DNA from: Desulfobacula sp.
Lineage (GTDB): Bacteria > Desulfobacterota > Desulfobacteria > Desulfobacterales > Desulfobacteraceae
Reading direction: 5' to 3'
Assembly (NCBI GenBank): GCA_023701135.1
Contig: JAMPXP010000027.1
Location: 1-52,180, forward strand
DNA length: 52,180 nucleotides
The translations under genes were made by a program, and so were the position numbers. Positions 7,207-45,597 of this stretch are shown piece by piece; the stretch's first letter is position 1, and the number at the start of each line of letters is the position of its first letter. A model generated the notes under the pieces. That model saw nothing but the letters and a program-made list of their open reading frames with translations, was not told the origin of the DNA and made no database searches.

Positions 7207-7269
7207 TTGACAAACCCGGACAAATTAAATTAATAGAGAGTATGAATTAAGACTGAGCGCTCGTTTGGT
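7207..7269 (+). promoter_or_regulatory. Promoter with TetR-type operator (site 1) before the acyl-CoA synthetase/Liv operon
   Basis: TTGACA (7207-7212) is followed 18 nt later by a weak -10 candidate, TAATAG (7231-7236). The element ACTGAGCGCTCGTTTGGT (7252-7269) lies where the transcription start would be. Its first half, with the preceding G (GACTGAGCGCTCG), is identical to the sites at the TetR gene and at the acyl-CoA dehydrogenase promoter near 45.4-45.6 kb. The right half-arm is degenerate here, so binding may be weaker. Confidence 0.6.
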
Positions 7270-7341
7270 TTGCACACGCTTAAGTAGAAGTTGAGTTCCT
7301 AAAAAAATTGCCAGAAATGAATTGAAAAGGAGTCATGCTTC

Positions 7342-8838
7342 ATGGACAGTCTTCACACCCTGACCTGTTTTGACATCTTTGAAAAAAATGCCCTTTATAA
7401 CGGCCCGGCCTGTGCAGTTCACTGGAACGACAAAGATATCACATATGCTGATCTTTTCATGCAAACCGCAAAACTGGCCGGCGGTCTTAACCGTCTGCGC
7501 CTCCCTGCCCAAAGCAGAATCGCCGTCCTGTGTAAAAATCATCCGGTTTTCTTCCACCTTCTGGGTGCCGCCTCTGCCCTTAATCTGGTGCTGGTGCTCA
7601 TCAACAGGCGCCTGAGCCGGGATGAAGTCTTTCATATCGTTGAGGACACAACACCGACGGTGATGGTCTGTGACGCTGAAATGGCGGATCAGGCCAGAGA
7701 GATTGCAAAATCCGCCGCCTGTATCCAACACTGTTATGTGGTGGATGAAACGGATTTTTCAGCTCTTTACGATTCCTCCCCGCTTCAAGACACTTGTCCT
7801 GTAGGACCCAAAGACCCGTATCTCATTATTCATACGGCAGCGGTCCAGGGCAAGCCCAGGGGGGCCGTTCTCTCCCAGGAGAACGTCCTTCTTTCCAACC
7901 AGCAGATTATCCAGACCTATGGCCTTGACCGAACCAAAGCCTATCTGAACATATTGCCGCTGTTTCATATCATGGGGATCAATATGAGCCTTGGGACCCT
8001 TCAGGCCGGCGGTAAAAATATTTTACAGGAAAAATTTGATCCAAAACAAACCTTAGCCCTTATCCAGGAACAAAGCGTCAATATTTTTGGTTCCTTCCCG
8101 CCCATATTATCCAACCTCATGGACGCCATGCAGGACGGTAATTTTGATCTTTCAAGCCTTGAAATCGCAGCTGGGCTTGAAACGCCTGAAACTGCAAAAA
8201 AATGGGAGTCCTGTACCGGTTCCAAATTCTGGACCATGTACGGACAGACCGAAACCTCAGGCCTGATCACCTTTGCCGAATATTTTAAAAAACCAGGTTC
8301 GGCCGGTGCTGTATCAGCGCTTGCCAATATTCGAATTGTCGATGAAGTGGACACCCTTCTGCCCACAGGCGCCACCGGAGAAATAGTCGTCCGGGGCCCC
8401 CTGGTGTTCCAGGGATACTGGAACGCAGAAGAGGTCAACGCCCTTACCTTCAGAGAAGGCTGGCACCATACCGGAGACCTCGGGATGCTGGATACAGACG
8501 GCTTTTTATTTTTCAAAGGCCGGAAAGCAGAAAGAGAATTGATCAAACCCGGTGGAGAAAATGTATTTCCTGCAGAGGTGGAAAAAGCCATTCTCAAGCA
8601 TGAGGCCATTCGAGAAGTCTGCGTTTTCGGTGTGCCTGATCCCAAATTCGGGGAAGGCATTAAAGCGGTCTGCTCCCTCAACCCCGGCAAAAGCCTGACC
8701 AAAGAGGACCTCATTGCATTCTGCGGGACCCTCATTGCAGGCTATAAAAAGCCGAGATATGTTGAATTTGTGAAAGAGCTGCCCAAGGCTGAAAACGGCG
8801 TCATCGACCGGCAGAAAATAAAAGCGGAATTTGCCTGA
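7342..8838 (+). CDS. AMP-dependent acyl-CoA synthetase-like protein with altered catalytic motifs
   Basis: A 498-aa member of the ANL (acyl-CoA synthetase) superfamily. The fold-defining motifs are present: MYGQTETSGLITF, GEIVVRGPLVFQGYWN, WHHTGDLGMLDTDGFLFF and GGENVFPAEVEKAI. Two catalytic motifs are unusual. The phosphate-binding loop, normally TSGTTGxPKG, reads HTAAVQGKPRG (residues 164-174). The C-terminal adenylation Lys of the usual GK motif is replaced by Val487 in ENGVIDRQKI. It may belong to a divergent but active branch or have lost adenylation. AAGGAG lies nine bases before the ATG. The gene stands first after the shared TetR operator and precedes a Liv-type importer. The natural substrate cannot be read from the sequence. 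Confidence 0.8.
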   Translation: MDSLHTLTCFDIFEKNALYNGPACAVHWNDKDITYADLFMQTAKLAGGLNRLRLPAQSRIAVLCKNHPVFFHLLGAASALNLVLVLINRRLSRDEVFHIVEDTTPTVMVCDAEMADQAREIAKSAACIQHCYVVDETDFSALYDSSPLQDTCPVGPKDPYLIIHTAAVQGKPRGAVLSQENVLLSNQQIIQTYGLDRTKAYLNILPLFHIMGINMSLGTLQAGGKNILQEKFDPKQTLALIQEQSVNIFGSFPPILSNLMDAMQDGNFDLSSLEIAAGLETPETAKKWESCTGSKFWTMYGQTETSGLITFAEYFKKPGSAGAVSALANIRIVDEVDTLLPTGATGEIVVRGPLVFQGYWNAEEVNALTFREGWHHTGDLGMLDTDGFLFFKGRKAERELIKPGGENVFPAEVEKAILKHEAIREVCVFGVPDPKFGEGIKAVCSLNPGKSLTKEDLIAFCGTLIAGYKKPRYVEFVKELPKAENGVIDRQKIKAEFA

Positions 8839-8988
8839 AAACAATCTGCTTTTTTACGAACAGGGTTTTTGTCTTGACACTAAAAGACTGATTTATTAAG
8901 GAGGTTCATTCGATCGGTATTGTCAATCCGTTTTGTTTTTCCGGGAAGCAGGTTTTCTTTAATCCCATTTAAAGAATTTGGATAATAT

Positions 8989-9750
8989 ATGGCACAACTC
9001 ACAGTTTCAGACGTTACACTTTCTTTTGGCGGACTCAAGGCGCTGTCCGAGGTCAATATGACCATCGAGCCGGGTCTGATTACCTCTATCATCGGGCCCA
9101 ACGGGGCCGGCAAAACCAGTATGCTCAACTGCATATCCGGATTTTACCACCCGACCCGGGGCAATATCTTTTACAAGGATAAAAAGCTCACCCATGCTTC
9201 CCCCCACGAAGTCTCCAATATGGGCATTGCCAGGGCTTTCCAGAATCTTGAGCTTTTTTCCGGTCTCACGGTTCTGGACAACCTTCTTTTAGCCCGGCAC
9301 CAGAACCTGAAATACAATTTTATAGAGGCCGTTGTTTTTTACGGCAAGGCCTCCCGCGTTGAGGCCGAAAACCGGGCCTATGTCGAGGACATCATTGATT
9401 TTATGGAGCTGGAGCCCTACCGTAAAAGCCTGGTGGGAAACTTAAGCTACGGGGTCCAGAAAAAAGTAGAGGTGGCCCGGGCCCTGACCCTGGCTCCGGA
9501 TATCCTGCTCCTGGATGAACCCATGGCCGGAATGAACCAGGAAGAAAAAGAGGATATCGTCCGGTTTGTCCTGGATATCCAGAAGGAGCGGGAAATCACC
9601 GTGGTGCTGGTGGAACATGACCTGGGCGTTGTCATGGACATTTCAGACCGGATCTATGTCCTGGATTTCGGCGAGGTGATCGGCTCGGGAACACCTGAAG
9701 AGGTGGCTCAGAATCCCAAAGTAATTGAAGCTTATATTGGAGAGGGTTAA
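8989..9750 (+). CDS. livG: ABC transporter ATP-binding protein, LivG type
   Basis: A 253-aa ATPase of the branched-chain amino acid (HAAT) importer family. Walker A is GPNGAGKTS, the signature is LSYGVQKKVEVARAL (LSYG instead of the usual LSGG), Walker B is ILLLDEPMAGMN, and the switch His is in VLVEHDLGVVMD. The LivG-type insertion after Walker A (ISGFYHPTRGNIFYKDKKL) is present. The ribosome site is weak; a TTGACA at 8874-8879 could add an internal promoter in the 150-bp gap upstream. It ends 2 nt before the next acyl-CoA synthetase gene. The symbol reflects subunit type only; the transported compound may be a carboxylic acid rather than an amino acid. Confidence 0.88.
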   Translation: MAQLTVSDVTLSFGGLKALSEVNMTIEPGLITSIIGPNGAGKTSMLNCISGFYHPTRGNIFYKDKKLTHASPHEVSNMGIARAFQNLELFSGLTVLDNLLLARHQNLKYNFIEAVVFYGKASRVEAENRAYVEDIIDFMELEPYRKSLVGNLSYGVQKKVEVARALTLAPDILLLDEPMAGMNQEEKEDIVRFVLDIQKEREITVVLVEHDLGVVMDISDRIYVLDFGEVIGSGTPEEVAQNPKVIEAYIGEG

Positions 9751-9752
9751 AC

Positions 9753-11678
9753 ATGACTGACAACAGACACCTGCTTGAATACTCCATCCCCCAACTGCTT
9801 CGATGGCGGGTCAAAACCAGCCCCAACCGTCCGGCTCTCCGGGAAAAGGATTTCGGGATCTGGAACACCTATACCTGGCAGGATTATTATGATCATGTCC
9901 GGAAAACCGCCCTGGGCCTCAGAGCCATCGGCCTTGGAAAAGGCAGCACCATCGCCCTTATCAGCGATAATATCCCGGAAATCCTCTTTGTGGCCATCGG
10001 CGCCCATTCCATCGGGGCCGTGTCCGCCGGTATTTATCAGACCAGCATGCCCCATGAAATCGCCCAGATCCTTCAGTCCCTGAAAGTCACGGCCGTGTTC
10101 TGCGACAACCAGGAACAGGTGGACAAGGTGCTGGAGGTCCGGGACCAGATCCCCAATGTGCAAAGGGTCATTTTTGAAGATCCGAGAGGCATGCGGGGCT
10201 ACCGGTCCGACGACTGGTTCATTGACATCCGGGAATTGTACCGGCTGGGGGACCTGGAGCATGCCAAAAACCCGGCCCTGTTTGAATCCCTGGTGGACCA
10301 GGGCAGGCCGGATGATGTCTGTCATCTCTGCCTCACCTCGGGAACCACGGGTCTTCCCAAGGGCACCATGCTGACCCATAAGAATTATATCAACATGGGG
10401 GTCCAGCTCACCGAGGTGGACCCCCTTGAACCCACGGATGAATATGTCTCCTTTTTGCCCTTTGCCTGGATCGGCGAACAGATGAATTCCTTCGGGGTAG
10501 CCATGGCCGCCGGCATCACCCTGAATTTTCCGGAATCCGTTGAAACCGCCATGTCGGATTTAAAGGAAATAGGGCCCCATTTCATGTTCGGGGCTCCCCG
10601 GATTTATGAGACCATCCGGTCCCAGATCTGGCTGAAGATCGACCAGTCCTATTGGCTCAACAAGCTTCTCTATAATTATTTCATCAAAATCGGGATTAAG
10701 GCCGCACAGTACAGGATGCGCGGCAAATCCATGCCCCTGGGCCTGAAAATCACCTCCTGGCTGGGCAAACAGTTTATTTTCAGGCCTCTTGTCAACCAGA
10801 TCGGGTTTTTACGCCTGCGGCGGGCCTATACCGGCGGGGCCGCCCTGGGTCCGGAACTCTTTACCTTTTACCAGGCCATCGGGGTCAATTTAAAACAAAT
10901 TTACGGCCAGACGGAAATCGTCGGAATTGCCTATATGCACAGGGACGGAGATATCCGGCCGGAAACCGTGGGCAAACCCCTGCCCGGAACCCGGTGCAAG
11001 ATTTCTGAAATCGGAGAAATCCTTTCCCAATCCGATTCCGTCACCCCAGGATATTTTGAGCTGCCGGAAAAATCGGCAGAGCTCCTGGAAGGAGGTTGGC
11101 TTCATTCCGGGGATGCCGGATTTATTGACGAACACGGCCATCTGGTGGTCATTGACCGAATCTCCGATGTCATGCACAATAAAAAGGGAGACATGTTCTC
11201 TCCCATGTTCCTTGAAAACGCCCTGAAATTCAGTCCCTATATCAAGGAGGCCGTGATCTACGGCAATAAGGAGGATTTTGTGGCCTGTCTGATCAACGTG
11301 GACCCCATTGTTGTGGGCAAATGGGCTGAGGACAGAGGGATTTCCTTTACCACCTATATGGACTTGTCCGGCAAACCGGAAGTGGCCGAACTCATCATGG
11401 AACAGGTCATTGACGTCAATTCCAGGGCGGAAAAAGAGCATTTCAAAATCAAACGGTTTGCCCTTCTTTATAAGCTGTTGGATGTGGATGACGGGGAACT
11501 CACCAAAACAGGGAAAATCCGCCGTAAATATGTACAGGAAAGATACCAGAACCTGTATGAAGCCCTTTATGACGAAACGGTGGACAAAAAAGATGTGGAG
11601 GCTTCCTTCCAGTACCAGGACGGGCAATCCACCAAGGTTAAAACGACAATCGCTTTTTACACGGTGAAAGGAGTCTGA
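9753..11678 (+). CDS. Long-chain-type acyl-CoA synthetase inside the Liv operon
   Basis: A 641-aa AMP-forming acyl-CoA synthetase with intact motifs: LTSGTTGLPKGTMLTH, YGQTEIVGIAYMH, SGDAGFIDEHGHLVVIDRI and the adenylation Lys in TKTGKIRRKY. The length, the IWLKIDQSYW region and the long C-terminal part resemble the eukaryotic-like FadD15/Faa branch. It activates a carboxylic acid to its CoA thioester with ATP, probably at the inner face of the membrane. Its position between livG and livH, with a 2-nt gap before and a 1-nt overlap after, points to vectorial uptake: import by the ABC system and trapping as CoA ester. Start by ATG with GGAGAGG a few bases upstream. Chain length of the substrate is not determinable. 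Confidence 0.88.
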   Translation: MTDNRHLLEYSIPQLLRWRVKTSPNRPALREKDFGIWNTYTWQDYYDHVRKTALGLRAIGLGKGSTIALISDNIPEILFVAIGAHSIGAVSAGIYQTSMPHEIAQILQSLKVTAVFCDNQEQVDKVLEVRDQIPNVQRVIFEDPRGMRGYRSDDWFIDIRELYRLGDLEHAKNPALFESLVDQGRPDDVCHLCLTSGTTGLPKGTMLTHKNYINMGVQLTEVDPLEPTDEYVSFLPFAWIGEQMNSFGVAMAAGITLNFPESVETAMSDLKEIGPHFMFGAPRIYETIRSQIWLKIDQSYWLNKLLYNYFIKIGIKAAQYRMRGKSMPLGLKITSWLGKQFIFRPLVNQIGFLRLRRAYTGGAALGPELFTFYQAIGVNLKQIYGQTEIVGIAYMHRDGDIRPETVGKPLPGTRCKISEIGEILSQSDSVTPGYFELPEKSAELLEGGWLHSGDAGFIDEHGHLVVIDRISDVMHNKKGDMFSPMFLENALKFSPYIKEAVIYGNKEDFVACLINVDPIVVGKWAEDRGISFTTYMDLSGKPEVAELIMEQVIDVNSRAEKEHFKIKRFALLYKLLDVDDGELTKTGKIRRKYVQERYQNLYEALYDETVDKKDVEASFQYQDGQSTKVKTTIAFYTVKGV

Positions 11679-12571
11679 TGAGTTATTTTTTTCAAATCGT
11701 CGTCAGCGGCATTGTGGTCGGCTCCATCTATGCCCTGGCCGCCCTGGGCCTGGTCCTGGTGTATAAATCCAGCCGGGTGGCCAATTTTGCCCATGGCCAG
11801 ATCATTGCCGCCGGAGCCTTTATCACCTTTTTTCTGACGGTGAGGGTGGGGGTGCCGATTTTTCTTGCCTTTTTGGCCAGCATGATCATCACCTTTTTTC
11901 TGGCCATGAGTGTGGAAAGAATCTTTTTACGCCGCCTTATCGGCGAGCCCATCATCTCGGTGATCATGGTGACCATAGGGCTTGCCTCCATCATTGACGG
12001 CCTGATCTATCTGACTCCCTTTGGATCGGAAAATTTCTCCTTTCCCGCCTTTCTTCCCGAGGATTCTTTAAGTCTCGGCGGGGTTTCCATTTCCTGGACC
12101 CAACTGGTGGGGCTCATGATCACAACCCTTCTCATCGGAGCCTTTTCCTGGTTCTTCAAAAAATCCACCGTCGGTATTTCCATGCGGGCTGTTTCCGACG
12201 ACCAATTCGGCGCCATGTCCGTGGGGATTTCCGTACCCCGGGTTTTCGGTCTGGCCTGGGCCACGGCCGGGTTGTCCGCCGCCGCCGCAGGCTGCATCAT
12301 CGGTAATATCACGGGATTAAATTTTGAGACCCTCCACGCCTTCGGCATTGTGGTCTTTCCCGTGGTCATCCTGGGGGGGCTTGATTCCATCCTGGGCGCA
12401 GTGGTGGCCGGCATCATCATGGGGCTGATCCAGCAGTTTGCCGGCGGATACCTGGACGGCAATTTCGGGCTCCACGGCACCGGAAATGTCATGCCCTATA
12501 TTATCCTGTTAATCATTCTTCTGTTTAAACCCCATGGTTTATTTGGAATCCATGAAATCGAGAGGGTGTGA
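11678..12571 (+). CDS. livH: ABC transporter permease, LivH type
   Basis: A 297-aa integral membrane protein with about eight hydrophobic segments, beginning IVVSGIVVGSIYALAALGLV, a hallmark of LivH permeases. Also typical are YKSSRVANFAHGQII near residue 30 and the cytoplasmic loop MRAVSDDQFGAMSVGISV that contacts the ATPase. It overlaps the preceding synthetase gene by one base (TGATG arrangement), so it is translationally coupled. With LivM it forms the membrane channel of a high-affinity importer. The substrate-binding protein is encoded two genes downstream. Confidence 0.9.
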   Translation: MSYFFQIVVSGIVVGSIYALAALGLVLVYKSSRVANFAHGQIIAAGAFITFFLTVRVGVPIFLAFLASMIITFFLAMSVERIFLRRLIGEPIISVIMVTIGLASIIDGLIYLTPFGSENFSFPAFLPEDSLSLGGVSISWTQLVGLMITTLLIGAFSWFFKKSTVGISMRAVSDDQFGAMSVGISVPRVFGLAWATAGLSAAAAGCIIGNITGLNFETLHAFGIVVFPVVILGGLDSILGAVVAGIIMGLIQQFAGGYLDGNFGLHGTGNVMPYIILLIILLFKPHGLFGIHEIERV

Positions 12572-12574: not shown

Positions 12575-13669
12575 ATGTCAGTCAACACGTGGTTAGCAAC
12601 AGGCAATTTCAACACGACCTACCGGCAGGAGCAAAAGACATTCGTCACCAGTCTGGACCGGTCGATATTTACCTTATTTCTTCTTACCCTTTTTGCCTGG
12701 CCGGTATTTTTTCCCATCAGCCAGAAATACATGCTGGTGGTGGATAATATCCTTGTTGCCATTGTGGCGGTCATGGGGCTGAATCTTTTGCTCGGTTTTG
12801 CCGGGCTGATTTCCATCGGCCATGCCGCCTTCATCGGCATCGGGGCCTATACCGTGGCCTCCTTCTCCAGGACCCTGGGAGATTCCCATGTCATTGTCAC
12901 CCATTTCTGGCCCGTTCTCATCCTCCTGGCCGGGTTTATGGGGGCCTTGTTCGGCGCCATAGTCGGGCTGCCGGCCCTTAGACTCAAGCATCTGTACCTG
13001 GCCATTGCCACCCTGTCCTTTCAAATGATTTTCCAGTGGGTGATCAATTTCATGAGTTTTTTCAACCAGGGCCAGACCATCTATGTGGGAAGGGTTTTCT
13101 GGTTTACCGGAGAAATCGGCCGGAACCAGCATTATATGTTCTGGTATTATATCATCCTGACCCTGGTGGTGCTCATGGGATTCGGGGTTCGAAACCTTTT
13201 AAAGACACGGTACGGAAGGTCCCTGGTTGCGGTCCGGGACAATGACCGGGCCGCCGATGCCATGGGCATGAACCCCGGACTCACCAAGGTATACGCCTTT
13301 GCCCTGGCCGGTTTTTTCGCCGGGGTGGCCGGCGCCCTCCATGCCTATCTTTACCGGGGCATCGGGTTTGAATCCTTTACCCTGCATCAGTCTGTCGGGT
13401 ATCTGGCCATGGCCATTGTCGGCGGCCTGGGGACCCTGAACGGGTCCTTCTGGGGACCGGTGGCCATCAAATACCTGGATATCCAGATGGAGCACCTTGC
13501 CGAATTTGCAGGTCATTACATGGTCCAGGCCTCCAACCTGTCAACGGCTTTAAAACCTCTCAGCTTCGGCCTTGTCATCGTTTTATTCCTGATGTTCGAG
13601 CCCAGGGGGATAGCCAACTGGTGGCGTATTGCCAAATCCTATACCAAGCTGTGGCCCTTCCGCTACTGA
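12575..13669 (+). CDS. livM: ABC transporter permease, LivM type
   Basis: A 364-aa membrane protein. A hydrophilic N-terminal stretch of about 30 residues precedes the first membrane segment. LivM hallmarks are present: NLLLGFAGLISIGHAAFIGIGAYT, LPALRLKHLYLAIATLSFQ, the coupling-loop block GRSLVAVRDNDRAADAMGMN and GGLGTLNGSFWGPV near the C-terminus. It starts 3 nt after livH with a GAGAGGG ribosome site. It is the second half of the permease heterodimer. A 68-nt gap without a convincing terminator separates it from the binding-protein gene. Confidence 0.9.
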   Translation: MSVNTWLATGNFNTTYRQEQKTFVTSLDRSIFTLFLLTLFAWPVFFPISQKYMLVVDNILVAIVAVMGLNLLLGFAGLISIGHAAFIGIGAYTVASFSRTLGDSHVIVTHFWPVLILLAGFMGALFGAIVGLPALRLKHLYLAIATLSFQMIFQWVINFMSFFNQGQTIYVGRVFWFTGEIGRNQHYMFWYYIILTLVVLMGFGVRNLLKTRYGRSLVAVRDNDRAADAMGMNPGLTKVYAFALAGFFAGVAGALHAYLYRGIGFESFTLHQSVGYLAMAIVGGLGTLNGSFWGPVAIKYLDIQMEHLAEFAGHYMVQASNLSTALKPLSFGLVIVLFLMFEPRGIANWWRIAKSYTKLWPFRY

Positions 13670-13737
13670 AGCATGCGGCAAGGATCCCGGCTTTGAACAT
13701 ATTGAGGTCAAAACCCAAACCTAGGAGGGAAAGTATC

Positions 13738-14964
13738 ATGAAAAGCAAAAAAGCATTATTATTCAACACATTACTCGTTTTTGCGGTAGTGTTTGCATTC
13801 ACCCTGCCGGCCCAGGCCGGCGGAAAGGCATACAAGATGGGTCTGTCCCTGGCCATCACAGGCCCCACATCCGATGCAGGAAATCCTTATGCCAAAGGGG
13901 CTGAAGACTGGTTCAAATATGTGAATGATACCAAGATGCTGGGAGAGGATACCATTGATTGCACCATCAAAGACGATCAATATGAAAATGATACCACCAA
14001 AAGATTTTTTGAACAATTTGTTGATGACGGGATTGTTCTTTTCCTGAGCTATGCCACCGGTGCCAACCTGGCCCTGAAACGGGACTTTGAGGAAATTCAG
14101 ATCCCCGTTGTCCCGGCCTCCTACCATGAGGGCCTCATCGTTGATGCAAAATATACCTTCATGCCCGTGGCCACCTATTCTGAAAACATTGTCGGACTGG
14201 CCGAATATGTGGTGGAGAATCATAAAGACGGCGGCGTTCCCAAGGTTGCCTTTTTTATCCATCCCTCGGCCTTTGGCCGGGGCCCCTTGGAAGACACCCA
14301 GAAAGCCGTTGCCGCCGGCCTGAAAATGGAAATTGTCGAAGTGGTCGAACATGGAAAGGACCTTGACAACAGCGCCATGCTCCAGCGCCTCATTAGCAAG
14401 GGCGTTCAGTATGTTCTCTGCCACTCGGTTCAGTCGCCCGTGGCCACCATGCTGACCGATGCCCAGCGCCTGGGCCTGGCCGCCAAGACCTTTGGTGAAA
14501 AAGGCAAACTGACCTTCCTCGGCGCCCATTATACCGGCGGCAACGACCTCATCGCCCTGGCCGGAGCAGCCACCGAAGGTTTTTTCTGGGCCTGTTCCTA
14601 TAACCTGACCTCGGAAAACAATGAAGGGGCCAAAAAGCAGTTGGATCTGGCCAAAAAATACGGCCGCGACGACAAGGCTGCCAATTCCCACAATTACGGC
14701 GCCGGCATCCTGGCGGCCCAGATTGCCACGGAAGCCGTCAAGATGGCAAAGGCTGCAAAACTGGAAGTCAACCGGGAAAACCTGTATAAAATGCTCAACG
14801 ACATGAAATTTGATTCCTTTGTGGCCGCCGGACCGGTCACCTTATCCAAAACCGAACGCATCGGGGTGGATGTCCTGAATATTTATGTGGCTGAAGGCGG
14901 AAAATTCAAGAAAATCAAATCCGTCGAATCCGAATTCATTAAAAAAGTCAGGGCCGGCCGTTAG
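13738..14964 (+). CDS. ABC transporter periplasmic substrate-binding protein, LivK family
   Basis: A 408-aa type I periplasmic binding protein. The start at 13738 is chosen because AGGAGG precedes it and because it gives a clean Sec signal peptide (MKSKKALLFNTLLVFAVVFA, cut after PAQA). The mature protein opens with KMGLSLAITGPTSDAGNPYAKGAEDWFKY, the family's ligand-binding first strand, and continues through RFFEQFVDDGIVLFLSYATG and FFIHPSAFGRGP. It captures the transported compound in the periplasm and hands it to LivHM. Relatives in this operon type often bind carboxylates or aromatic acids rather than leucine, and I cannot tell which here. A strong hairpin follows the gene. Confidence 0.88.
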   Translation: MKSKKALLFNTLLVFAVVFAFTLPAQAGGKAYKMGLSLAITGPTSDAGNPYAKGAEDWFKYVNDTKMLGEDTIDCTIKDDQYENDTTKRFFEQFVDDGIVLFLSYATGANLALKRDFEEIQIPVVPASYHEGLIVDAKYTFMPVATYSENIVGLAEYVVENHKDGGVPKVAFFIHPSAFGRGPLEDTQKAVAAGLKMEIVEVVEHGKDLDNSAMLQRLISKGVQYVLCHSVQSPVATMLTDAQRLGLAAKTFGEKGKLTFLGAHYTGGNDLIALAGAATEGFFWACSYNLTSENNEGAKKQLDLAKKYGRDDKAANSHNYGAGILAAQIATEAVKMAKAAKLEVNRENLYKMLNDMKFDSFVAAGPVTLSKTERIGVDVLNIYVAEGGKFKKIKSVESEFIKKVRAGR

Positions 14965-15044: not shown

Positions 15045-15072
15045 AATAACCCCCAAACCAGAGAAAGTGCAT

Positions 15073-37138: not shown

Positions 37139-37984
37139 TCAGGTCTTTAATTTCTCCCTGAGAAATTCAACGGTCCGCTTCCAGGCCAGGTCCGCCGCCT
37201 GCGGATGATAGCGGGAGGCATTGGTGTCATTGAGAAAGGCATGCTCGGCCCCCTCGTACCTATACAGTTTGTAGTCAATGCGGGATGATTTCAGGGCCGC
37301 TTCATAGTCGGGAACAGCCTTGTTGATCCGCTCGTCAAGGCCGGCGTAATGGAGCAGCAGGGCCGCCTTGATCTTCGGCACCTCAGCGGGGTCGGGCGGC
37401 ATTCCGTAAAAAGGAACCGCAGCCTGGATGTCTTGGGTCCGCACCGCCAGTTGGTTGGCCATGGCCCCTCCCCAGCAAAAGCCCACCACCCCGACCCGGC
37501 CCGTTGTCTTGGGATGGGTGCTTAAATACTGGACCACGGCGATGAAATCGTCCACGGTCCGTCCGCTGTCCAGTTTTCCGATGAGATTCCGGGCCTCATC
37601 CGGGTCGGCAGGGGTGCCCCCCAGGGGAGATAAGGCATCCGGGGCCAGGGCGTGAAATCCTTCAAGGGCCATCCTCCGGGTGATGTCTTCGATATGGGGA
37701 TTCAGCCCCCGGTTTTCATGGATGACAATGACCCCGGGCTTTTTGCCCCCGGCTTTTTCCCCGGCCCAATAGGCCCTGATATTGCCGGTCTTGCCCGGGA
37801 ACGAGATATAACCCGCATCCAGGCGCGGGTCATCCCGGGAGATGATTTCCGCCGCAGCGCCATCAAGCCCCGGCAGAGTCAGGGCGGAAACGGCCCCGCC
37901 CGTCAGAAGCGCCAGTTTCTTTAAAAACTCCCGGCGATCCATCCCCTCCTCAGTGTATGGGTCATACAAAAGGTCCTGGTTCAT
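37139..37984 (-). CDS. Exported dienelactone hydrolase family protein
   Basis: A 281-aa alpha/beta hydrolase. The N-terminus holds a Tat-like signal: MDRREFLKKLALLTGG (residues 15-30), then a hydrophobic run ending AAAE. The hydrolase domain shows VIVIHENRGLNPHI, nucleophile Cys in GFCWGGAM, Asp in YAGLDERI and His in GAEHAF, the Cys-Asp-His triad of the dienelactone hydrolase family (YghX-like). It should act in the periplasm on an ester or lactone, substrate unknown. AAGGAGG is four bases before the ATG. It follows the M24 peptidase gene by 15 nt and is likely transcribed with it. Confidence 0.85.
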   Translation of the reverse strand: MNQDLLYDPYTEEGMDRREFLKKLALLTGGAVSALTLPGLDGAAAEIISRDDPRLDAGYISFPGKTGNIRAYWAGEKAGGKKPGVIVIHENRGLNPHIEDITRRMALEGFHALAPDALSPLGGTPADPDEARNLIGKLDSGRTVDDFIAVVQYLSTHPKTTGRVGVVGFCWGGAMANQLAVRTQDIQAAVPFYGMPPDPAEVPKIKAALLLHYAGLDERINKAVPDYEAALKSSRIDYKLYRYEGAEHAFLNDTNASRYHPQAADLAWKRTVEFLREKLKT

Positions 37985-37999
37985 TTTGCCTCCTTTCGG

Positions 38000-39199
38000 T
38001 TATAAAAGGGTGATCCCGTCATCATAGACGGTCAGGGATTCCAGGCCCTGGTCCGTGACCAGCAGGGTATTTTCAATGCCGACAACGCCTTTGCCAGGCA
38101 TGACCACCTTGGGTTCCAGGGCGATGACCATACCCTTTTCCAGCGCCAGGGTCTGGCCCTGGGCGATGAAGGGAAATTCATCCAGTTCCAGGCCGATGCC
38201 GTGGCCGGTGAACCGGATTCTTCTGTCTCCGGCCCCCATGAACGTATCTTTATAACCCCTGGCCTCGGCCTCGGCCATCATCATCCGGTAAATATCCCCG
38301 GTGATATTTCCGGGAAGGGCTTCTTGTTTGACCCGCGCCTGGATCTCCAGCATGGCGTCATGGGCCCTTAAAAGATCGTCCGGAAGCCTGCCCATGCAGA
38401 AGATCCGGGTGTGGTCGCTGGTATAGCCGTTCAGCACAAAGACATAATCCACAAGAACAGATTCATTGCGTCGGATGATATTAAACCCCGGCCCCTGGGC
38501 AATGCTGGGGTTGACGCCCATCCCGCCCGTGGGGGAGGCAAAGGAAGAGGGCACGGCGGCACCGGGTCCGACCATGATATGGCCGTAAAAAAGATCACTG
38601 TCCCACATGCGCATCCGGATGAGGCCCTGGTGCCCCAGGCTCCGGGCATAGGCTTCCAGCAGGCCTGCGAATTCGATCTCCGTTAATCCCTCCCGGAGCA
38701 GCTCCGGCACCTTTGCCGCCACCTTGTCGGCCATGCGGGCGCTTTCCCGCATGAGGCCGATCTCATATCCGGATTTGACGGCCCGCTGAAGCCGGATCTC
38801 CAGGGAGATGTCCATGAGGGTTGAACCGGGAAAAATTTTCTGAAATAAAAGGTAGTGGTTGGCGGAGATCACATCCAGTTCAAGACCCAGAATCTTGGGG
38901 GCCTTGCAGCCGAATCCGTCCAGGGTGGCGGGAATGTCTTTGGGGCTGACAAGGGAGATCACCCGGTCCAGCCCGGACTCTGCCCTGGCCCGGTCAAAAT
39001 CCTTGAAGACCATGAGCAGGGGCCTTCCCACGGCCGGGATATAGAGCCAGCCCTGCTGGGCCGTGCCGGAATAATAGAACATATCGGCCTTCTGCAGGAT
39101 CAGGGCCCCGTCCACACGGCTGTTTTCAAGCCTTGTCTGAAAGGCCGATATCCTTGCCTGCTGCTCTGCTTCAGGCATGCTCCGGTGATATCGGGTCAT
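38000..39199 (-). CDS. M24-family aminopeptidase (Xaa-Pro type)
   Basis: A 399-aa cytoplasmic protein with a creatinase-like N-terminal domain (about 1-155) and a pita-bread catalytic domain. The five metal ligands of M24 peptidases are all there: Asp in LVDYVFVLNGY, Asp in TSDHTRIF, His in FTGHGIGLELDE, Glu in ALEPKVVM and Glu in GIENTLLV. It would hydrolyse N-terminal X-Pro bonds or a related amide. It is downstream of the hbd-thiolase-icmF operon but a hairpin lies between, so it may form its own unit with the hydrolase gene. GGGGGTG precedes the ATG. Specificity is not predictable. Confidence 0.85.
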   Translation of the reverse strand: MTRYHRSMPEAEQQARISAFQTRLENSRVDGALILQKADMFYYSGTAQQGWLYIPAVGRPLLMVFKDFDRARAESGLDRVISLVSPKDIPATLDGFGCKAPKILGLELDVISANHYLLFQKIFPGSTLMDISLEIRLQRAVKSGYEIGLMRESARMADKVAAKVPELLREGLTEIEFAGLLEAYARSLGHQGLIRMRMWDSDLFYGHIMVGPGAAVPSSFASPTGGMGVNPSIAQGPGFNIIRRNESVLVDYVFVLNGYTSDHTRIFCMGRLPDDLLRAHDAMLEIQARVKQEALPGNITGDIYRMMMAEAEARGYKDTFMGAGDRRIRFTGHGIGLELDEFPFIAQGQTLALEKGMVIALEPKVVMPGKGVVGIENTLLVTDQGLESLTVYDDGITLL

Positions 39200-39297: not shown

Positions 39298-40149
39298 TTA
39301 TTGATAATCGTAGAACCCTTTTCCGGTTTTTCTTCCCAGCCAGCCGGCTTCCACATATTTCCGAAGCAGTGGGCAGGGCCTGTATTTGGAATCCTTGAAC
39401 CCGTTATAGAGGGTTTCCATGATGGCCAGGCAGGTGTCCAGGCCGATGAGGTCGGCCAGGGCCAGGGGTCCCATGGGATGGTTGGCGCCCAGCCGCATGA
39501 CCGTATCAATGTCTTCGGGTTTTCCCACGCCGTGGTAGAGGCAGAAAATGGCCTCATTGATCATGGGCAGCAGGATCCGGTTGGCGATAAAGCCGGGGAA
39601 ATCATTGGCCTCGGCCGGGGTTTTCCCGAATTTTTCACAGAGCCGCCAGGTGAGATCAAAGGTTTCCTTGGATGTGGCAAGGCCCTTGATGACTTCCACC
39701 AGCTTCATGACCGGCACCGGGTTCATGAAATGCATGCCGATGACCTTGTCCGGCCGGGAAGTCCGGGCTGCAATTCTTCCAATGGGGATGGAAGAGGTAT
39801 TGGTGGACAAAATGACCTGGGGCGGGCAGATTTTATCCAGGTCTTCAAATATCTTGAATTTCAGATCTTCCCTTTCCACGGCGGCCTCCACCACAAAGTC
39901 CACAGCCCCCATGTCCTTTAAATCCGTGGTGGTTTTGATCCGGCCCAGAATGGCCTTCATATCGGCTTCGGACATTTTGTCCTTCTTCACCATGCGGTCC
40001 AGGTTTTTGGATATGGTGCCAAGACCCTTGTCGCAGAATTCCTGTTTGATATCACTCATTAATACTTCAAGGCCGGCGGCGGCTGCAACCTGGGCAATGC
40101 CGTTGCCCATCTGGCCGGACCCGATGACTCCGAATCGTTTTACTTCCAT
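39298..40149 (-). CDS. hbd: 3-hydroxybutyryl-CoA dehydrogenase
   Basis: A 283-aa NAD(P)-dependent dehydrogenase. The N-terminal Rossmann motif is GVIGSGQMGNGIAQVAA. STNTSSIPIGRIA and GMHFMNPVPVMKLVEVI carry the catalytic Ser/His/Asn region, and NDFPGFIANRILLPMINEA begins the helical dimer domain. It interconverts (S)-3-hydroxybutyryl-CoA and acetoacetyl-CoA. With the thiolase upstream (start 41398) it completes oxidation of butyryl-CoA, which IcmF could supply from isobutyryl-CoA. A crotonase for the missing hydration step is not obvious, unless the hydratase at 46851 serves. GGAGGAAG precedes the ATG. Confidence 0.93.
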   Translation of the reverse strand: MEVKRFGVIGSGQMGNGIAQVAAAAGLEVLMSDIKQEFCDKGLGTISKNLDRMVKKDKMSEADMKAILGRIKTTTDLKDMGAVDFVVEAAVEREDLKFKIFEDLDKICPPQVILSTNTSSIPIGRIAARTSRPDKVIGMHFMNPVPVMKLVEVIKGLATSKETFDLTWRLCEKFGKTPAEANDFPGFIANRILLPMINEAIFCLYHGVGKPEDIDTVMRLGANHPMGPLALADLIGLDTCLAIMETLYNGFKDSKYRPCPLLRKYVEAGWLGRKTGKGFYDYQ

Positions 40150-40222: not shown

Positions 40223-41398
40223 TCACCTGTTGACGACAAGTGCAACAGCTTCTCCACCGCCAAGGCAAAGAGAGGCCAGACCGTTTTTCACATCCCGCTT
40301 GATCATCTCATGGATCAGGGTGGTCAGAACCCTGGCCCCGCTGGCGCCGATGGGGTGGCCCAGGGCCACGCTGCCGCCGTTGACGTTGACCTTGGCGGGG
40401 TCCAGTTCAAGCACCTTATTAATACCGGCGGAACTGCCGGAAAAGGCTTCGTTGATTTCAAATAGGCCCATTTCGGATATGGAAAGCCCCTGTTTTTTCA
40501 ATACCTTTGGGATGGCGTAGATGGGGGCCATGAGCACGTATTTCATATCAATGCCGTAGGAGGCCTGGGCGCCAATGGATGCAAGGATAGTACACCCCAG
40601 TTCCCTGGCCTTTTTTTCGCTCATGATGACCAGGGCCGAGGCCCCGTCACTGATGATGGAAGCATTCCCGGCGGTTCCCACCCCGTCTTTTTTAAAAGCG
40701 GGTTTCATCTTGGAAAGGGATTCCAGGCTGGTTTCCTGGGGGCATTCGTCCGTGTCGAACTGCCTGGGCTCCCCTTTTCTCTGGGGCACTTTTACCGGCA
40801 GGACCTCATCTTTGAACCGGCCCGAGGCCATGGCGGCCAGGGCCCGTTTATAGGATTCGGCGGCGAACCGGTCCTGATCTTCGCGGGACACCTCCCATTT
40901 TTCACAGCACAGCTCATTGGACATGCCCATGTGAAAATCATTGATCACATCCCAGAGGCCGTCATGGACCATGTGGTCTTCGATTTTACCGGGTCCCATG
41001 CGAAGCCCGAACCGGGCCTTATCCATATAATAGGGGGCCATGCTCATATTTTCCATGCCCCCGGCGATGACGACCTCGGCATCCCCGCACTGAACGGCCT
41101 GGGCCGCCAGCATGACGGCCTTGAGGGAAGAGCCGCAGACCTTGTTCACGGTGATGGATTCCACCTCCCAGGGAAGACCGGCCTTGACGGCCGCGAGCTT
41201 GCCCGGATTCTGGCCGTATCCGCAGGGCAAAACCATGCCCATGATGCATTCGTTGATCTCTTTATCCTCAATCCCCGCCCGGCGAACCGCTTCCCGGATG
41301 ACAAGGGCGCCCAGATCCGTTGCGCCGATGGTGGAAAGGGTCCCGCCGAAACTTCCCAGGGGGGTCCGTACCGCACTGACAATGACTGCCTGATTCAT
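40223..41398 (-). CDS. Acetyl-CoA acetyltransferase (thiolase)
   Basis: A 391-aa thiolase. The nucleophile is Cys88 in [13 protein letters not shown]. The second active-site set is [12 protein letters not shown] (His) and [12 protein letters not shown] (Cys), and NEAFSG is present. The start [19 protein letters not shown] at 41398 has AAGGAG nine bases upstream; the longer frame runs into icmF. Length and motifs fit biosynthetic/degradative acetoacetyl-CoA thiolases, which split acetoacetyl-CoA into two acetyl-CoA. It also connects to acetoacetate made by the lyase branch and activated by the acetoacetyl-CoA synthetase at 51048. It lies between icmF and hbd in one operon. Confidence 0.93.
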
Positions 41399-41436: not shown

Positions 41437-44400
41437 TTACATATTTCTTCGATATTTTCCGCCCACCTGGTAAAGGGCCTGGGTAATGGTGCCGAGGCTG
41501 CACACCTGAACCGTCTCCATGAGCCTTTCAAACATGTTCCCGTTGGACAGGGCCGTCTGCTTCAGCTCTTCAACGGCCTTGTCCGCCTTGTCCCCATGGC
41601 GTTCCTTAAAGGCCTTCAGCCTTGCCAACTGGGCGTTTTTCTGTTCATCCGTGGACCTGGAAAGCTCCAGGTGATTGGCCATTTCCGCATAATCCGCATC
41701 CGGGTCCTGGAAGGTATTGACCCCGATGATGGGATGGCCCCCGGAATGTTTCAGGTGTTCATAATGCATGGATTCTTCCTGGATCTTGCCGCGCTGGTAG
41801 CCGGTTTCCATGGCCCCCAGGACCCCGCCCCGTTCCGTGATGCGTTCAAATTCCATGAGGACCGCCTCTTCCACCAGATCCGTCAGTTCATCCACGATAA
41901 AACTGCCCTGGAGGGGATTTTCATTTTTGGCCAGGCCCCATTCCCGGTTGACAATGAGCTGGATGGCCAGGGCTCTTCGCACCGATTCCGTGGACGGCGT
42001 GGTGATGGCTTCGTCAAAGGCGTTGGTGTGAAGGCTGTTGCAGTTGTCATAAATGGCGCAAAGCCCCTGGAGGGTGGTCCGGATATCATTGAACTGGATG
42101 TCCTGGCTGTGGAGGGACCGGCCCGAGGTCTGTATATGGTATTTCAGCTTCTGGGATTTCTCGTCGGCCTTGTATTTGTATTTCATGGCCACGGCCCAGA
42201 TGCGCCGGGCCACCCGGCCGATGACCGTGTATTCCGGGTCCATGCCGTTGGAAAAGAAAAAGGACAGGGAAGGCGCAAAGCTGTTGATATCCATGCCCCG
42301 GGACAGGTAATATTCCACATAGGTGAACCCGTTGGCCAGGGTCAGGGCCAGTTGGGTGATGGGGTTGGCCCCGGCTTCGGCGATGTGATAGCCCGAGATG
42401 GAGACCGAATAAAAATTCATGACCTTGTGGTCGATGAAATACTGCTGGATATCCCCCATCATTTTCAGGGCGAATTCAATGGAAAAAATACAGGTGTTCT
42501 GGCCCTGGTCTTCTTTCAGGATATCGGCCTGGACCGTTCCCCGGACATTGGACAGGGCAAACTGCTGGAGTTCGGCCGCCTCTTCTTCCGAGGGTTCCCG
42601 GCCCTTTTCCTGCCTGAATTTGTCCAGTTGCTGGGCAATGGCCGTGTTCATGAACATGGCCAGCATCATGGGGGCCGGGCCGTTGATGGTCATGGACACC
42701 GAGGTATTGGGGGCACACAGATCGAATCCGCCGTAGAGGACCTTGACATCGTCCAGGGTGCAGATGGACACGCCCGAGGTGCCGATTTTCCCGTAAATAT
42801 CCGGCCGGGTGTCCGGGTCAAACCCGTAGAGGGTCACCGAGTCAAAGGCCGTGGACAGCCGTTTGGCCGGATAGGCCCCGGACAGGAGCTTGAACCGCCG
42901 GTTGGTGTCTTCGGGCCCGCCCTCACCGGCAAACATCCGGGTGGGGTCTTCGTCGGCCCGTTTTAAGGGAAAGACCCCGGCGGTATAGGGAAAAGCCCCG
43001 GCAAAATTTTCTTTCCGGGTCCAGGTATACTGTTCGCCGGGGTCCTGGAACCGGGGCAGTGAGATTTTGGGGATTTTGGAATGGGACAGGGAGGTGGTAT
43101 AGAGCGGGACCCGGAGTTCCCTATCCCGGACCTGGTAGACCAGTTCGTCTTTCCCATACCGGTCCCGGGCCTGGACGAATTCCTGGATGTTTTTCTCGGT
43201 TTCTTCAAAAATAAAGGACCTGGCCTCTTCCACGGCCATTTTAAGCTGCAAGAGAACATCGGGCCCCGGGTCTTTATCCTCCATGATCTTGAGGGTTTCC
43301 AGGATGTGCCAGTAATCCCGCACGGCCCCGGCCTGGGTAGCCGTGGTTTTATGGTATTCCCGGATCGTATCGGCAATCTCGGCCAGGTACCGGGTTCTCT
43401 CTCCGGGAATGATGATGGTCTTGGATGAGGATTCCTTTCTGCCGGTCCGCGGGAGCCTGGATTCATAGCGGATCCCTTTTTTCTCCGCAATCAGATCCAG
43501 GAGCCCGTGATAAAAGGCGGTGATGCCGTCGTCATTGAATTTGGAAGCAATGGTGCCGTAGACCGGCAGGTCTTTGGGGTCCCGGTCAAAGGCCTTGCGG
43601 TTCCGCTGCACCTGCTTTCTCACATCCCGCAGGGCGTCCTCGCTGCCTTTTTTCTCGTATTTGTTCACCACCACGATATCGGCGTAATCCAGCATGTCGA
43701 TCTTTTCCAGTTGGGAGGGGGCCCCGAATTCAGCCGTCATGACATAGACGGACATGTCCGTCATGTCCACCACCCTTGAATCCCCCTGGCCGATGCCGGC
43801 GGTTTCCACCAGGATGATGTCATAGCCCGCGGCCTTAACCACGGCGATGGCGTCGGGCAGGACCTCGGGCAGCTCGGTCTGGGACCGCCGGGTGGCCAGG
43901 GACCGCATATAGACCCGGCCGCTTTCAATGGAATTCATCCTGATCCGGTCGCCCAACAGAGCCCCGCCGGTTTTCCTGCGGGACGGATCACAGGAAATGA
44001 TGGCAATATGAACCTCCTTCAGATCATTGAGCATCCTCAGGACCAATTCGTCGGTCAGGGAAGACTTGCCTGCCCCGCCGGTCCCGGTGAGGCCGATGAC
44101 CGGCACATCCCGCTTTTCCGCCCTTTGGAGGACCCCGGCCATGATCCGGTCAAAGGCCCCACTGTCATTGGCCTTGGCTTCCTGGACCGCTGAAATGAAA
44201 TTGGCCGTGACAAATTTATTGTCCACGGTGAGGGCCGCCAGGTCCAGGCGCTCATAATCCACAGAGGATGCGTCCATGGACTGCATCATATCGTTGATCA
44301 TGCCCTGGAGCCCCATCTTTGCCCCGTCTTCGGGGGAATAGATCCGGGTGATCCCGTAGGCATGGAGTTCATCCATTTCCGAGGGGATGATGACCCCGCC

Positions 44401-44700
44401 GCCGCCGCCGAAAATCTTGATATGGGAGGCGCCCCTTTCCTTTAACAGGTCCTTCATATACTTAAAATATTCCATATGGCCGCCCTGGTAGCTAGACACG
44501 GCAATGCCCTGGGCGTCTTCCTCAATGGCCGCATCCACCACCTCTTTGGCCGACCGGTTGTGGCCGATATGGATGACCTCGGCCCCCGTATCCTGCAAAA
44601 TTCTTCTCATGATATTGATGGAGGCATCATGGCCGTCAAAAAGCGAGGTGGCGGTGACGACCTTGATGGAATGCATTGGTTTATAGATCAGGGGGTCCAT
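41437..44700 (-). CDS. icmF: Fused isobutyryl-CoA mutase (IcmF), B12-dependent
   Basis: A 1087-aa fusion protein. It starts with a cobalamin-binding domain (about 10-140; DGHDASINIMRR with base-off His24), then a MeaB-type G-protein chaperone (about 190-420; P-loop GLTGTGGAGKSS at 203-214, and NKYEKKG), a linker, and the mutase TIM barrel (about 560-1087; TSVSMTINGPAPMMLAMFMN, SISGYHIAEAGANPITQ, YHIQTSGRSLHSQD). This is the IcmF layout. At the site where methylmalonyl-CoA mutase has its substrate-carboxylate Tyr there is Phe590 (TRMFAGEGG), which favours isobutyryl/butyryl or isovaleryl/pivalyl substrates. The upstream tetR gene ends 17 nt before. The exact substrate remains open. Confidence 0.93.
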   Translation of the reverse strand: MDPLIYKPMHSIKVVTATSLFDGHDASINIMRRILQDTGAEVIHIGHNRSAKEVVDAAIEEDAQGIAVSSYQGGHMEYFKYMKDLLKERGASHIKIFGGGGGVIIPSEMDELHAYGITRIYSPEDGAKMGLQGMINDMMQSMDASSVDYERLDLAALTVDNKFVTANFISAVQEAKANDSGAFDRIMAGVLQRAEKRDVPVIGLTGTGGAGKSSLTDELVLRMLNDLKEVHIAIISCDPSRRKTGGALLGDRIRMNSIESGRVYMRSLATRRSQTELPEVLPDAIAVVKAAGYDIILVETAGIGQGDSRVVDMTDMSVYVMTAEFGAPSQLEKIDMLDYADIVVVNKYEKKGSEDALRDVRKQVQRNRKAFDRDPKDLPVYGTIASKFNDDGITAFYHGLLDLIAEKKGIRYESRLPRTGRKESSSKTIIIPGERTRYLAEIADTIREYHKTTATQAGAVRDYWHILETLKIMEDKDPGPDVLLQLKMAVEEARSFIFEETEKNIQEFVQARDRYGKDELVYQVRDRELRVPLYTTSLSHSKIPKISLPRFQDPGEQYTWTRKENFAGAFPYTAGVFPLKRADEDPTRMFAGEGGPEDTNRRFKLLSGAYPAKRLSTAFDSVTLYGFDPDTRPDIYGKIGTSGVSICTLDDVKVLYGGFDLCAPNTSVSMTINGPAPMMLAMFMNTAIAQQLDKFRQEKGREPSEEEAAELQQFALSNVRGTVQADILKEDQGQNTCIFSIEFALKMMGDIQQYFIDHKVMNFYSVSISGYHIAEAGANPITQLALTLANGFTYVEYYLSRGMDINSFAPSLSFFFSNGMDPEYTVIGRVARRIWAVAMKYKYKADEKSQKLKYHIQTSGRSLHSQDIQFNDIRTTLQGLCAIYDNCNSLHTNAFDEAITTPSTESVRRALAIQLIVNREWGLAKNENPLQGSFIVDELTDLVEEAVLMEFERITERGGVLGAMETGYQRGKIQEESMHYEHLKHSGGHPIIGVNTFQDPDADYAEMANHLELSRSTDEQKNAQLARLKAFKERHGDKADKAVEELKQTALSNGNMFERLMETVQVCSLGTITQALYQVGGKYRRNM

Positions 44701-44717
44701 AGTTATTCGTTCTCCTC

Positions 44718-45368
44718 TTAAAATATCCGCCCCAGGATAAAATCCGTCTGGATGGCGATGTATTCCTCAATGGTGAAATGTTTCTGCACGTGCCAGCGCC
44801 GGAAGGCCCACATCTGCCCCAGGATGGAAATATCATGGCCCACCAGGTTCATTACCTTGCCGTCCAGGACCGGGAACCCGTTTTTGCCGGAAAGCGAGGT
44901 CAGGGCCTGGATAAAAATCTGGGTGATATTCAATTCGTTTTCAAGCACCTGGGCCTTCCATTTTCCCGGCAGGAACTGGGTCACCTGGTACATGAGAAGG
45001 ATATGGTCGGCCATACTGTCGCAAACATAAAAATACTGGCGGATGACCCGGGCCAGCCTTTCCTTTCCCCTGTCCGTACCGGCCAGGGCCTTTTCAACGG
45101 CATCCTGGACTTCTTCATGGATGGTTTTGCAGACCAGATACAACAGGTCTTCCTTGGAGCTGACATATTCGTATAAGGAGCCGATGGAAAAATCGGCGGC
45201 CCTGGCGATCATCCGGGTGGTGGTCTTGTGGTATCCGTGTTCCACGAAGAGCTTGACGGTGGAATCAATGATCTTGCGCCGTCTTTCCCGCACGAGTTCA
45301 GGATTTTTGATCTGGGTCGGGACCTCTATCTCGGCAACGGGAACCTGTATTTTTTTTAGTCTTCCCAA
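44718..45368 (-). CDS. TetR-family regulator of the branched-acyl-CoA locus
   Basis: A 216-aa repressor from the proposed TTG start at 45368, which has AGGAG seven bases upstream. The longer frame from 45446 would place the operator inside the gene and add 26 residues with no family resemblance. The helix-turn-helix is KIIDSTVKLFVEHGYHKTTTRMIARAADFSIGSLYEY in pieces, typical of TetR proteins. The C-terminal part should bind the effector, probably an acyl-CoA. It is the first gene of the icmF operon and lies under its own operator (45411-45430), so autoregulation is expected, together with the divergent dehydrogenase operon and the operon at 7.3 kb. Confidence 0.85.
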   Translation of the reverse strand: MGRLKKIQVPVAEIEVPTQIKNPELVRERRRKIIDSTVKLFVEHGYHKTTTRMIARAADFSIGSLYEYVSSKEDLLYLVCKTIHEEVQDAVEKALAGTDRGKERLARVIRQYFYVCDSMADHILLMYQVTQFLPGKWKAQVLENELNITQIFIQALTSLSGKNGFPVLDGKVMNLVGHDISILGQMWAFRRWHVQKHFTIEEYIAIQTDFILGRIF

Positions 45369-45410
45369 ACAGCCACTCCTTTCTTCTTGCCGGCCATTAA
45401 ACAGAGCGGG

Positions 45411-45430
45411 CTTGAACGAGCGCTCAGTCA
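45411..45430 (-). promoter_or_regulatory. TetR-type operator (site 2) at the tetR-icmF promoter
   Basis: On the minus strand TGACTGAGCGCTCGTTCAAG contains the imperfect palindrome TGA-n-CG-nn-CG-n-TCA. A TTGACA box lies upstream on that strand (45465-45460); the site starts 36 nt from it. The site is 43 nt before the TTG start, so it is in the leader and supports that start choice. Confidence 0.7.
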
Positions 45431-45539
45431 TGGTTTTTTTTGGCATTTATTCCATCTCTTGTCAAGAATTTATCAAAGGAAGTCATTTGAATTTTTACCT
45501 TTTCCCTTCAACAACCGGTAAAAACCCTTTAAAAAACAT

Positions 45540-45597
45540 TTGACAAAAATATTTCTTTGACTGTAGTATCCGGATATAGACTGAGCGCTCGATCAGT
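45540..45597 (+). promoter_or_regulatory. Promoter with TetR-type operator (site 3) for the dehydrogenase operon
   Basis: TTGACA (45540-45545), 18 nt, TAGTAT (45564-45569). ACTGAGCGCTCGATCAGT (45580-45597) follows at the expected transcription start; it is the most symmetric of the three sites (ACTGA-n-CG-nn-CG-n-TCAGT). Repressor bound here would block initiation directly. Confidence 0.7.

Follow-up and report, generated by a model that had tools for sequence, protein, structure and literature searches.

A putative TetR operator linking branched-acyl-CoA uptake and oxidation genes in Desulfobacula sp.

Three transcription units and their operators

The window analysed here is a stretch of 52,180 nucleotides from Desulfobacula sp. 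(NCBI GenBank assembly GCA_023701135.1, contig JAMPXP010000027.1, positions 1 to 52,180), which carries an operon for acyl-CoA ligases and a Liv-type importer and, further downstream, two divergent operons of acyl-CoA metabolism, one of them headed by a tetR gene. Each of the three promoters is accompanied by a copy of an 18-bp palindrome, TGANYGAGCGCTCRNTCA, sited where it would cover the transcription start, which we propose as the operator of the encoded TetR repressor. A previous sequence-only reading had connected these promoters by a shared 13-mer, GACTGAGCGCTCG, found 36-44 nt downstream of a TTGACA. Its three exact copies were located precisely where that reading had placed them, at 7251-7263 (+), 45429-45417 (-) and 45579-45591 (+), with start-to-start distances of 44, 36 and 39 nt from the TTGACA at 7207, 45465 (minus strand) and 45540. 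The palindrome formula given at the time, TGA-n-CG-nn-CG-n-TCA, was wrong, and the element is better written as the 18-mer TGA-NY-GAGCGCTC-RN-TCA.

The tetR gene (44718-45368, minus strand) encodes a protein of the TetR/AcrR superfamily with an N-terminal TetR helix-turn-helix (HTH) and an all-helical C-terminal domain, and its nearest named relative, with 96% identity, is the TetR of a Desulfobacula genome. The -35 element of its promoter (TTGACA, 45460-45465, minus strand) is conserved, with CTTGACA present in 20 of 20 upstream regions inspected, own included. In these 20 regions the operator directly follows the -10 region, an arrangement that would fit a repressor blocking the transcription start. 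Operator 2 (TGACTGAGCGCTCGTTCA, 45413-45430, minus strand) lies in the 5' untranslated region of tetR and has no mismatch to TGANYGAGCGCTCRNTCA. The mechanical open reading frame (ORF) of tetR extends to 45446 and reads operator 2 as codons; however, many orthologues are similar only from residues 21-41 of this long ORF onwards, the match to the short form becomes firm at its residue 16, and eight relatives between L057 and L066 likewise have a TTG behind a purine-rich, GGAG-like site. The start is therefore most likely the TTG at 45368, behind GGAG-N7, and operator 2 would be leader DNA misread as codons.

Downstream of tetR on the same strand follows IcmF, a fused isobutyryl-CoA mutase/GTPase (41437-44700), which scored 1871 bits against NCBIfam NF045497, over the curated cut-off of 1500, and 1455 bits against the solved IcmF 4xc6. 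The Phe and Gln that we take to be substrate-determining in IcmF (F598, Q742) are present in the alignment, assuming an offset for a 20-residue tag. The next genes encode an acetyl-CoA C-acyltransferase (thiolase; 40223-41398; TIGR01930, 443 bits, cut-off 240.55), whose start was set at the onset of homology, residue 36 of the mechanical ORF, and a 3-hydroxybutyryl-CoA dehydrogenase (39298-40149; NCBIfam PRK05808, 460 bits, cut-off 408). Judging solely by strand and spacing, a dienelactone-hydrolase-like and an M24 peptidase-like gene (37139-39199, minus strand; Pfam DLH and Peptidase_M24) appear to form the far end of this operon.

The divergent dehydrogenase operon (plus strand) has a sigma-70-like promoter, TTGACA-18-TAGTAT (45540-45569), with 10 of 12 consensus matches, and operator 3 (AGACTGAGCGCTCGATCA, 45578-45595, one mismatch) begins 8 nt behind it. 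It encodes a short-chain acyl-CoA dehydrogenase (45680-46828), for which all NCBIfam matches were under their cut-offs and the best solved relative was 7szv (389 bits), and an enoyl-CoA hydratase (46854-47633; PRK07657, 350 bits, cut-off 363; start set at the onset of homology, residue 42 of the mechanical ORF). These are followed by a carboxyltransferase of the methylcrotonyl-CoA carboxylase (MCC) beta type (47639-49228), matching 3u9r, an MCC beta subunit, with 428 bits and 9tps, named as a propionyl-CoA carboxylase beta subunit, with 430 bits. A diverged enzyme resembling 3-hydroxy-3-methylglutaryl-CoA (HMG-CoA) lyase (49260-50384; HMG-CoA lyase 6nds, 90 bits; PRK05692, 134 bits, cut-off 246) and, at the end of the operon, an HTH-cupin regulator (50353-51039; Pfam Cupin_2 and HTH_3) complete the unit. 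Since the genome contains three biotin-carboxylase-domain genes, one of them on contig C2, a carboxylase partner for the carboxyltransferase is available.

The importer/ligase unit consists of two acyl-CoA ligases and a complete Liv-type ATP-binding cassette (ABC) importer, all encoded on the plus strand. The TTGACA at 7207-7212 would be its -35 element, and TTTGACAAA recurs here in most of 30 orthologous promoters; a sigma-70 consensus scan at operator 1 gave no full match, so that the -10 element is weak or unrecognised. Operator 1 (AGACTGAGCGCTCGTTTG, 7250-7267) has three mismatches to TGANYGAGCGCTCRNTCA and an intact core. The first gene encodes an AMP-forming acyl-CoA synthetase (7342-8838; NCBIfam PRK06187-type, 349.5 bits, under the curated cut-off of 476), followed by a LivG-type ATPase (8989-9750; NCBIfam LivG, 264 bits, under the cut-off of 362) and a second AMP-forming acyl-CoA ligase (9753-11678; NCBIfam FadD11-like, 278 bits, under the cut-off of 950). 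Two Liv/Urt-type permeases (11678-12571 and 12575-13669), a periplasmic Liv-type substrate-binding protein (13621-14964; 284 bits to 3lkb, its best solved relative and probably a binding protein for branched-chain amino acids) and a LivF/UrtE-type ATPase (15067-15879) make up the remainder. Elsewhere in the window, a PemK/MazF-like toxin-type gene (1751-2158) stands just before an aminotransferase gene, and two PEP-CTERM sorting proteins and a PrsT-like tetratricopeptide-repeat protein are encoded between the two regulated loci (17194-21694).

Distribution of the palindrome and its regulator

In the whole genome of 4,805,548 bases the exact 13-mer is present in three copies, all inside the window, with 0.19 expected per genome and 0.002 per window from composition. 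At ≤2 mismatches the window total is again three, the exact copies alone; 100 dinucleotide shuffles of the window gave a mean of 0.70 such matches, and 4 of the 100 reached three. The 18-mer TGANYGAGCGCTCRNTCA at ≤1 mismatch was found at three sites genome-wide, two at the divergent tetR and dehydrogenase promoters and one on contig C2. The C2 site (C2:15125-15142, no mismatch) lies between a branched-chain aminotransferase gene, ilvE (497 bits, cut-off 307), just upstream, and an HTH-cupin/acyl-CoA dehydrogenase pair, and its place directly downstream of ilvE links the regulon with branched-chain amino acids. The sequence-only reading was supported for its three promoters and had not included this fourth target outside the window. 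At the C2 site a second, imperfect core, GAGCGCTT, follows 11 nt behind the first.

We examined the upstream regions of tetR orthologues in loci L026-L093, reduced to 57 distinct regions by removing identical duplicates and two loci with no upstream sequence (L070, L079); L094, in which tetR found no match, was left out. The palindrome was perfect in 41 regions, had one mismatch in 7 and two in 4, so that 52 of 57 carry a putative operator in their own promoter, a common trait of TetR/AcrR regulators, and 11 of the 18 palindrome positions are invariant among these 52. No 18-mer at ≤2 mismatches was found upstream of tetR in L035, L041, L088, L089 and L091, of which four belong to Desulfamplus or genus g2 and one to G245. 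When the 55 loci with enough downstream sequence were compared, the operator was present in all 44 with icmF linked to tetR, and the five operator-less loci were all among the 11 without adjacent icmF (p 1.3e-4, uncorrected for relatedness). Shuffle controls for the tetR, ligase and phylum-wide operator counts were made by shuffling single bases.

Conservation before the ligase gene was scored in the best 30 loci, own included, of 51 genomes with a match, counting only the operator upstream of that gene. The 18-mer was found at ≤3 mismatches in 27 loci and with four mismatches and an intact core in two, and was lost in one (L163); the core GAGCGCTC is thus kept in 29 of 30. The genome-wide search and the comparison of orthologous promoters of tetR and the ligase both agreed with the sequence-only reading. 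That reading had also placed the importer/ligase operon 38 kb away from the acyl-CoA locus, a distance that holds for the window. Among 40 genomes of the family with a good ligase orthologue, however, ligase and tetR share a contig in 27, are on split contigs in 12, and one genome has no tetR. On a shared contig the two lie 5.7-50.9 kb apart in 26 of the 27 genomes and 275 kb apart in the remaining one, indicating that the window carries a conserved neighbourhood in stretched form and not a link between unrelated loci. In G269 all four units are on one contig within about 46 kb.

Within 59 genomes of the family, the 18-mer at ≤1 mismatch occurred in 49, with 107 forward matches and none for the reversed pattern. 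Our examination of 45 sites in 41 loci, picked to favour those not obviously at tetR, placed 11 at tetR, 9 before the orthologous dehydrogenase operon, as counterparts of operator 3, 19 at an ilvE/HTH-cupin-type locus and 6 elsewhere. The class of 19 contains a second acyl-CoA dehydrogenase in 19/19, ilvE in 18/19 and a called HTH-cupin gene in 17/19. The six other sites comprise two inside ORFs (L179 and L199), three in genus g144, and one in L186. In other families of the order the sites stand at tetR-icmF, at dehydrogenase-hydratase-lyase operons and at acyl-CoA ligases, with a ligase reading away from the site in 10 of 19 longer loci, which were not chosen at random. In one of these genomes, a gene for a CBS/cNMP-binding/DUF294 protein (L259, 5422-7356, genome G045) lies between two perfect palindromes, and L263 has a 652-aa ORF in a similar setting. 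The window and contig C2 each encode an HTH-cupin regulator at one of the four targets; the two proteins are 31% identical and may add a further level of control.

Across 291 genomes of the order, scoring tetR orthologues at E≤1e-40 (seven weaker ones, about 1e-44 to 1e-56, were scored present) and the motif at ≤1 mismatch, tetR and motif were found together in 141 genomes, tetR only in 27, motif only in 27 and neither in 96. Statistical analysis indicated a strong association (odds ratio 18.6, Fisher p 3.6e-27, uncorrected for relatedness and incomplete genomes). A phylum-wide sample of 198 genomes contained a tetR orthologue (E≤1e-30) in 19. All 17 newly fetched loci from this sample have an icmF homologue within flanks of about 1.5 kb, and 14 of the 16 with upstream sequence carry the 18-mer at ≤2 mismatches; L281, whose contig starts at the gene, was outside this count. 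Three of the 17 belong to the order of the window and 14 to other orders; all 14 of the latter have icmF no further than about 1.5 kb from tetR, and 11 of 13 carry the operator at ≤1 mismatch. Based on this constant neighbourhood outside the order, icmF is probably the ancestral target of this TetR.

Known regulators and alternative explanations

TetR repressors of acyl-CoA catabolism are known, including FadR, BkaR and AibR, and the TetR described here would add to them a regulator that has an operator of its own and, unusually, icmF at its centre. Among the papers listed in our searches of the open-licence literature, none described this operator or regulator. AibR of Myxococcus xanthus, a TetR-type regulator solved with isovaleryl-CoA, is 15-16% identical to the TetR of the window; the likeness is a fold match only, from a comparison limited to a second look at Foldseek matches. 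BkaR (Rv2506) of mycobacteria was rejected based on its operator core, GTTA(N)T(N4)A(N)TAAC in the excerpted account (PMC3920632), which differs from the core GAGCGCTC here; furthermore, that excerpt does not name icmF among the BkaR genes. LiuR (MerR) and LiuQ (TetR) of Proteobacteria likewise place branched-chain amino acid catabolism under one regulator (PMC5343134), although LiuR belongs to another family. The same work restricts LiuQ to betaproteobacteria and reports orthologues in deltaproteobacteria for no more than five of the regulators that it covers. The repressor of the sulP (sulfate uptake) clusters in Desulfobacteraceae is also a TetR with an upstream palindrome, of 16 bp (PMC11887813). 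It is tied to sulfate transporter genes, whereas none was identified at the sites described here, among the neighbouring genes that were scanned.

Several observations weigh against the proposed regulon or against simple counts as evidence for it. Genome-wide, the 13-mer at ≤2 mismatches occurred 16 times, as often as its reversed control, and the exact 10-mer TGAGCGCTCG occurred 5 times against about 11 expected from composition. Raw motif counts were therefore dropped as proof, and the case rests on placement and conservation. One 13-mer with a single mismatch, at C9:192351 inside a 457-aa ORF, was taken as chance, as were most two-mismatch matches. These counts would agree with the three matches in the window being a chance repeat of a GC-rich palindrome; however, the retention of the site at orthologous promoters in distant genomes and its strong co-occurrence with tetR already refute this explanation, whose probability we regard as negligible. 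Operator 1 deviates from the palindrome at three outer positions (1, 17 and 18), and icmF is the first tested gene downstream of tetR in only 46 of the 57 distinct loci. In genus g144 (L189, L190, L193) the palindrome adjoins a 677-aa ORF, which in L190, the only one of the three scanned, resembles elongation factor G (927 bits), and in the genome of the window a weaker motif, TGGTTGAGCGCTCGTTTC (C38:33325-33342), stands before a diguanylate cyclase (GGDEF) gene, with a radical-SAM gene on its other side. The carboxyltransferase and the lyase are named by their nearest relatives, and the lyase match is distant. For isobutyrate, the Desulfococcus multivorans paper favours another route, without assigned genes (PMC5109826). 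L190 also has a divergent DUF6125 gene and, downstream, a CehA/McbA-type hydrolase, with no apparent link to acyl-CoA at the g144 sites.

The distribution of the motif in the order is also not strictly one-to-one with tetR, since 27 of the 168 motif-bearing genomes, among them the near-complete G129, G152 and G250, have no tetR orthologue at E≤1e-40, and 27 genomes with the orthologue lack the motif at ≤1 mismatch. G129, a single contig with 100% completeness and no tetR orthologue, retains a perfect palindrome at its HTH-cupin/dehydrogenase pair, and HTH-cupin genes stand at two of the targets. It is conceivable, then, that the operators are real and that another regulator, a TetR paralogue or an HTH-cupin protein, binds some of them while the adjacent tetR regulates nothing beyond its own promoter. 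We consider this improbable, because the palindrome accompanies tetR in other orders as well and the ligase locus fetched from the tetR-less G129 has no site at ≤3 mismatches. The dyad symmetry of the palindrome also points to a TetR protein, as such operators are usual for TetR dimers.

A less remote alternative, though still an unlikely one in our estimate, is that the palindrome is a TetR operator whose repressor senses straight-chain or general acyl-CoA, as FadR does, and governs a general fatty-acid regulon. The best solved-structure sequence match of the TetR is indeed FadR of Bacillus subtilis (E 1e-9) and its best NCBIfam match is Bacillus FadR (NF053878), and the frequent acyl-CoA ligases at sites in other families would suit such a role. 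Moreover, IcmF also gives butyryl-CoA, and the thiolase and 3-hydroxybutyryl-CoA dehydrogenase serve butyrate. Membership in the Bacillus FadR family was nevertheless rejected at 49.4 bits, far under the curated cut-off of 200. Compared with FadR (YsiA) of B. subtilis and B. halodurans, the regulon here is centred on icmF and branched-acid genes, and the operator has a GCGC centre. Its recurrent partners, icmF, the MCC-type carboxyltransferase, the HMG-CoA-lyase-like gene and ilvE, argue against a general fatty-acid regulon, and in D. multivorans a further TetR regulator, FadR2, is encoded next to the myristate genes (PMC5109826).

A proposed branched-acid regulon

The predicted operator and its regulon are strongly supported by placement and conservation, and we hold it very likely that acids derived from valine and leucine are taken up, activated and oxidised under the control of a TetR repressor that responds to a short branched acyl-CoA and acts through TGANYGAGCGCTCRNTCA at four units. 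We propose that the TetR acts as a homodimeric, autoregulating repressor, which would bind the palindrome a few bases downstream of the -10 element and thereby block RNA polymerase. IcmF converts isobutyryl-CoA to butyryl-CoA, and its own operon, with the thiolase and 3-hydroxybutyryl-CoA dehydrogenase, would carry isobutyryl-CoA through butyryl-CoA to acetyl-CoA. The divergent operon of acyl-CoA dehydrogenase, hydratase, MCC-type carboxyltransferase and HMG-CoA-lyase-like enzyme would serve a leucine/isovalerate-type route, the third unit would provide the Liv-type importer and two acyl-CoA ligases, and the fourth, off-window, would be the HTH-cupin/acyl-CoA dehydrogenase pair downstream of ilvE. 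The probable inducer is a short branched acyl-CoA, with isobutyryl-CoA and isovaleryl-CoA as the likeliest candidates; it would release the repressor and switch on the four units together.

Published work on related organisms bears on both routes. Isobutyrate-degrading syntrophs have been suggested to use an IcmF-type route, and the mutases of these syntrophs are relatives of a group from sulfate reducers (PMC5017805). The divergent dehydrogenase operon matches the isovalerate set of D. multivorans, whose isovalerate proteins are substrate-specific and made only on isovalerate (PMC5109826).

In a broader form of this proposal, to which we give about even weight, the TetR and the mutase would be an ancient and apparently undescribed regulator-mutase module of Desulfobacterota. 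Its TetR would sense isobutyryl-CoA or the isomer butyryl-CoA, with icmF as ancestral target, and lineages would later have added the importer/ligase unit, the MCC-type operon and the ilvE-linked dehydrogenase under the same operator. Much of the carbon that sulfate reducers oxidise in marine sediments is attributed to Desulfobacteraceae, and a 2025 study described the catabolic and regulatory networks of this family as essentially unknown (PMC11887813). If the proposal is true, a carbon-skeleton rearrangement would be the regulated entry step of valine and isobutyrate oxidation in sulfate reducers. The analysis yields a conserved regulator gene, an operator and a list of targets, in which isobutyrate use would be tied to IcmF by shared control, and the motif could be used to find branched-acid genes in metagenomes.

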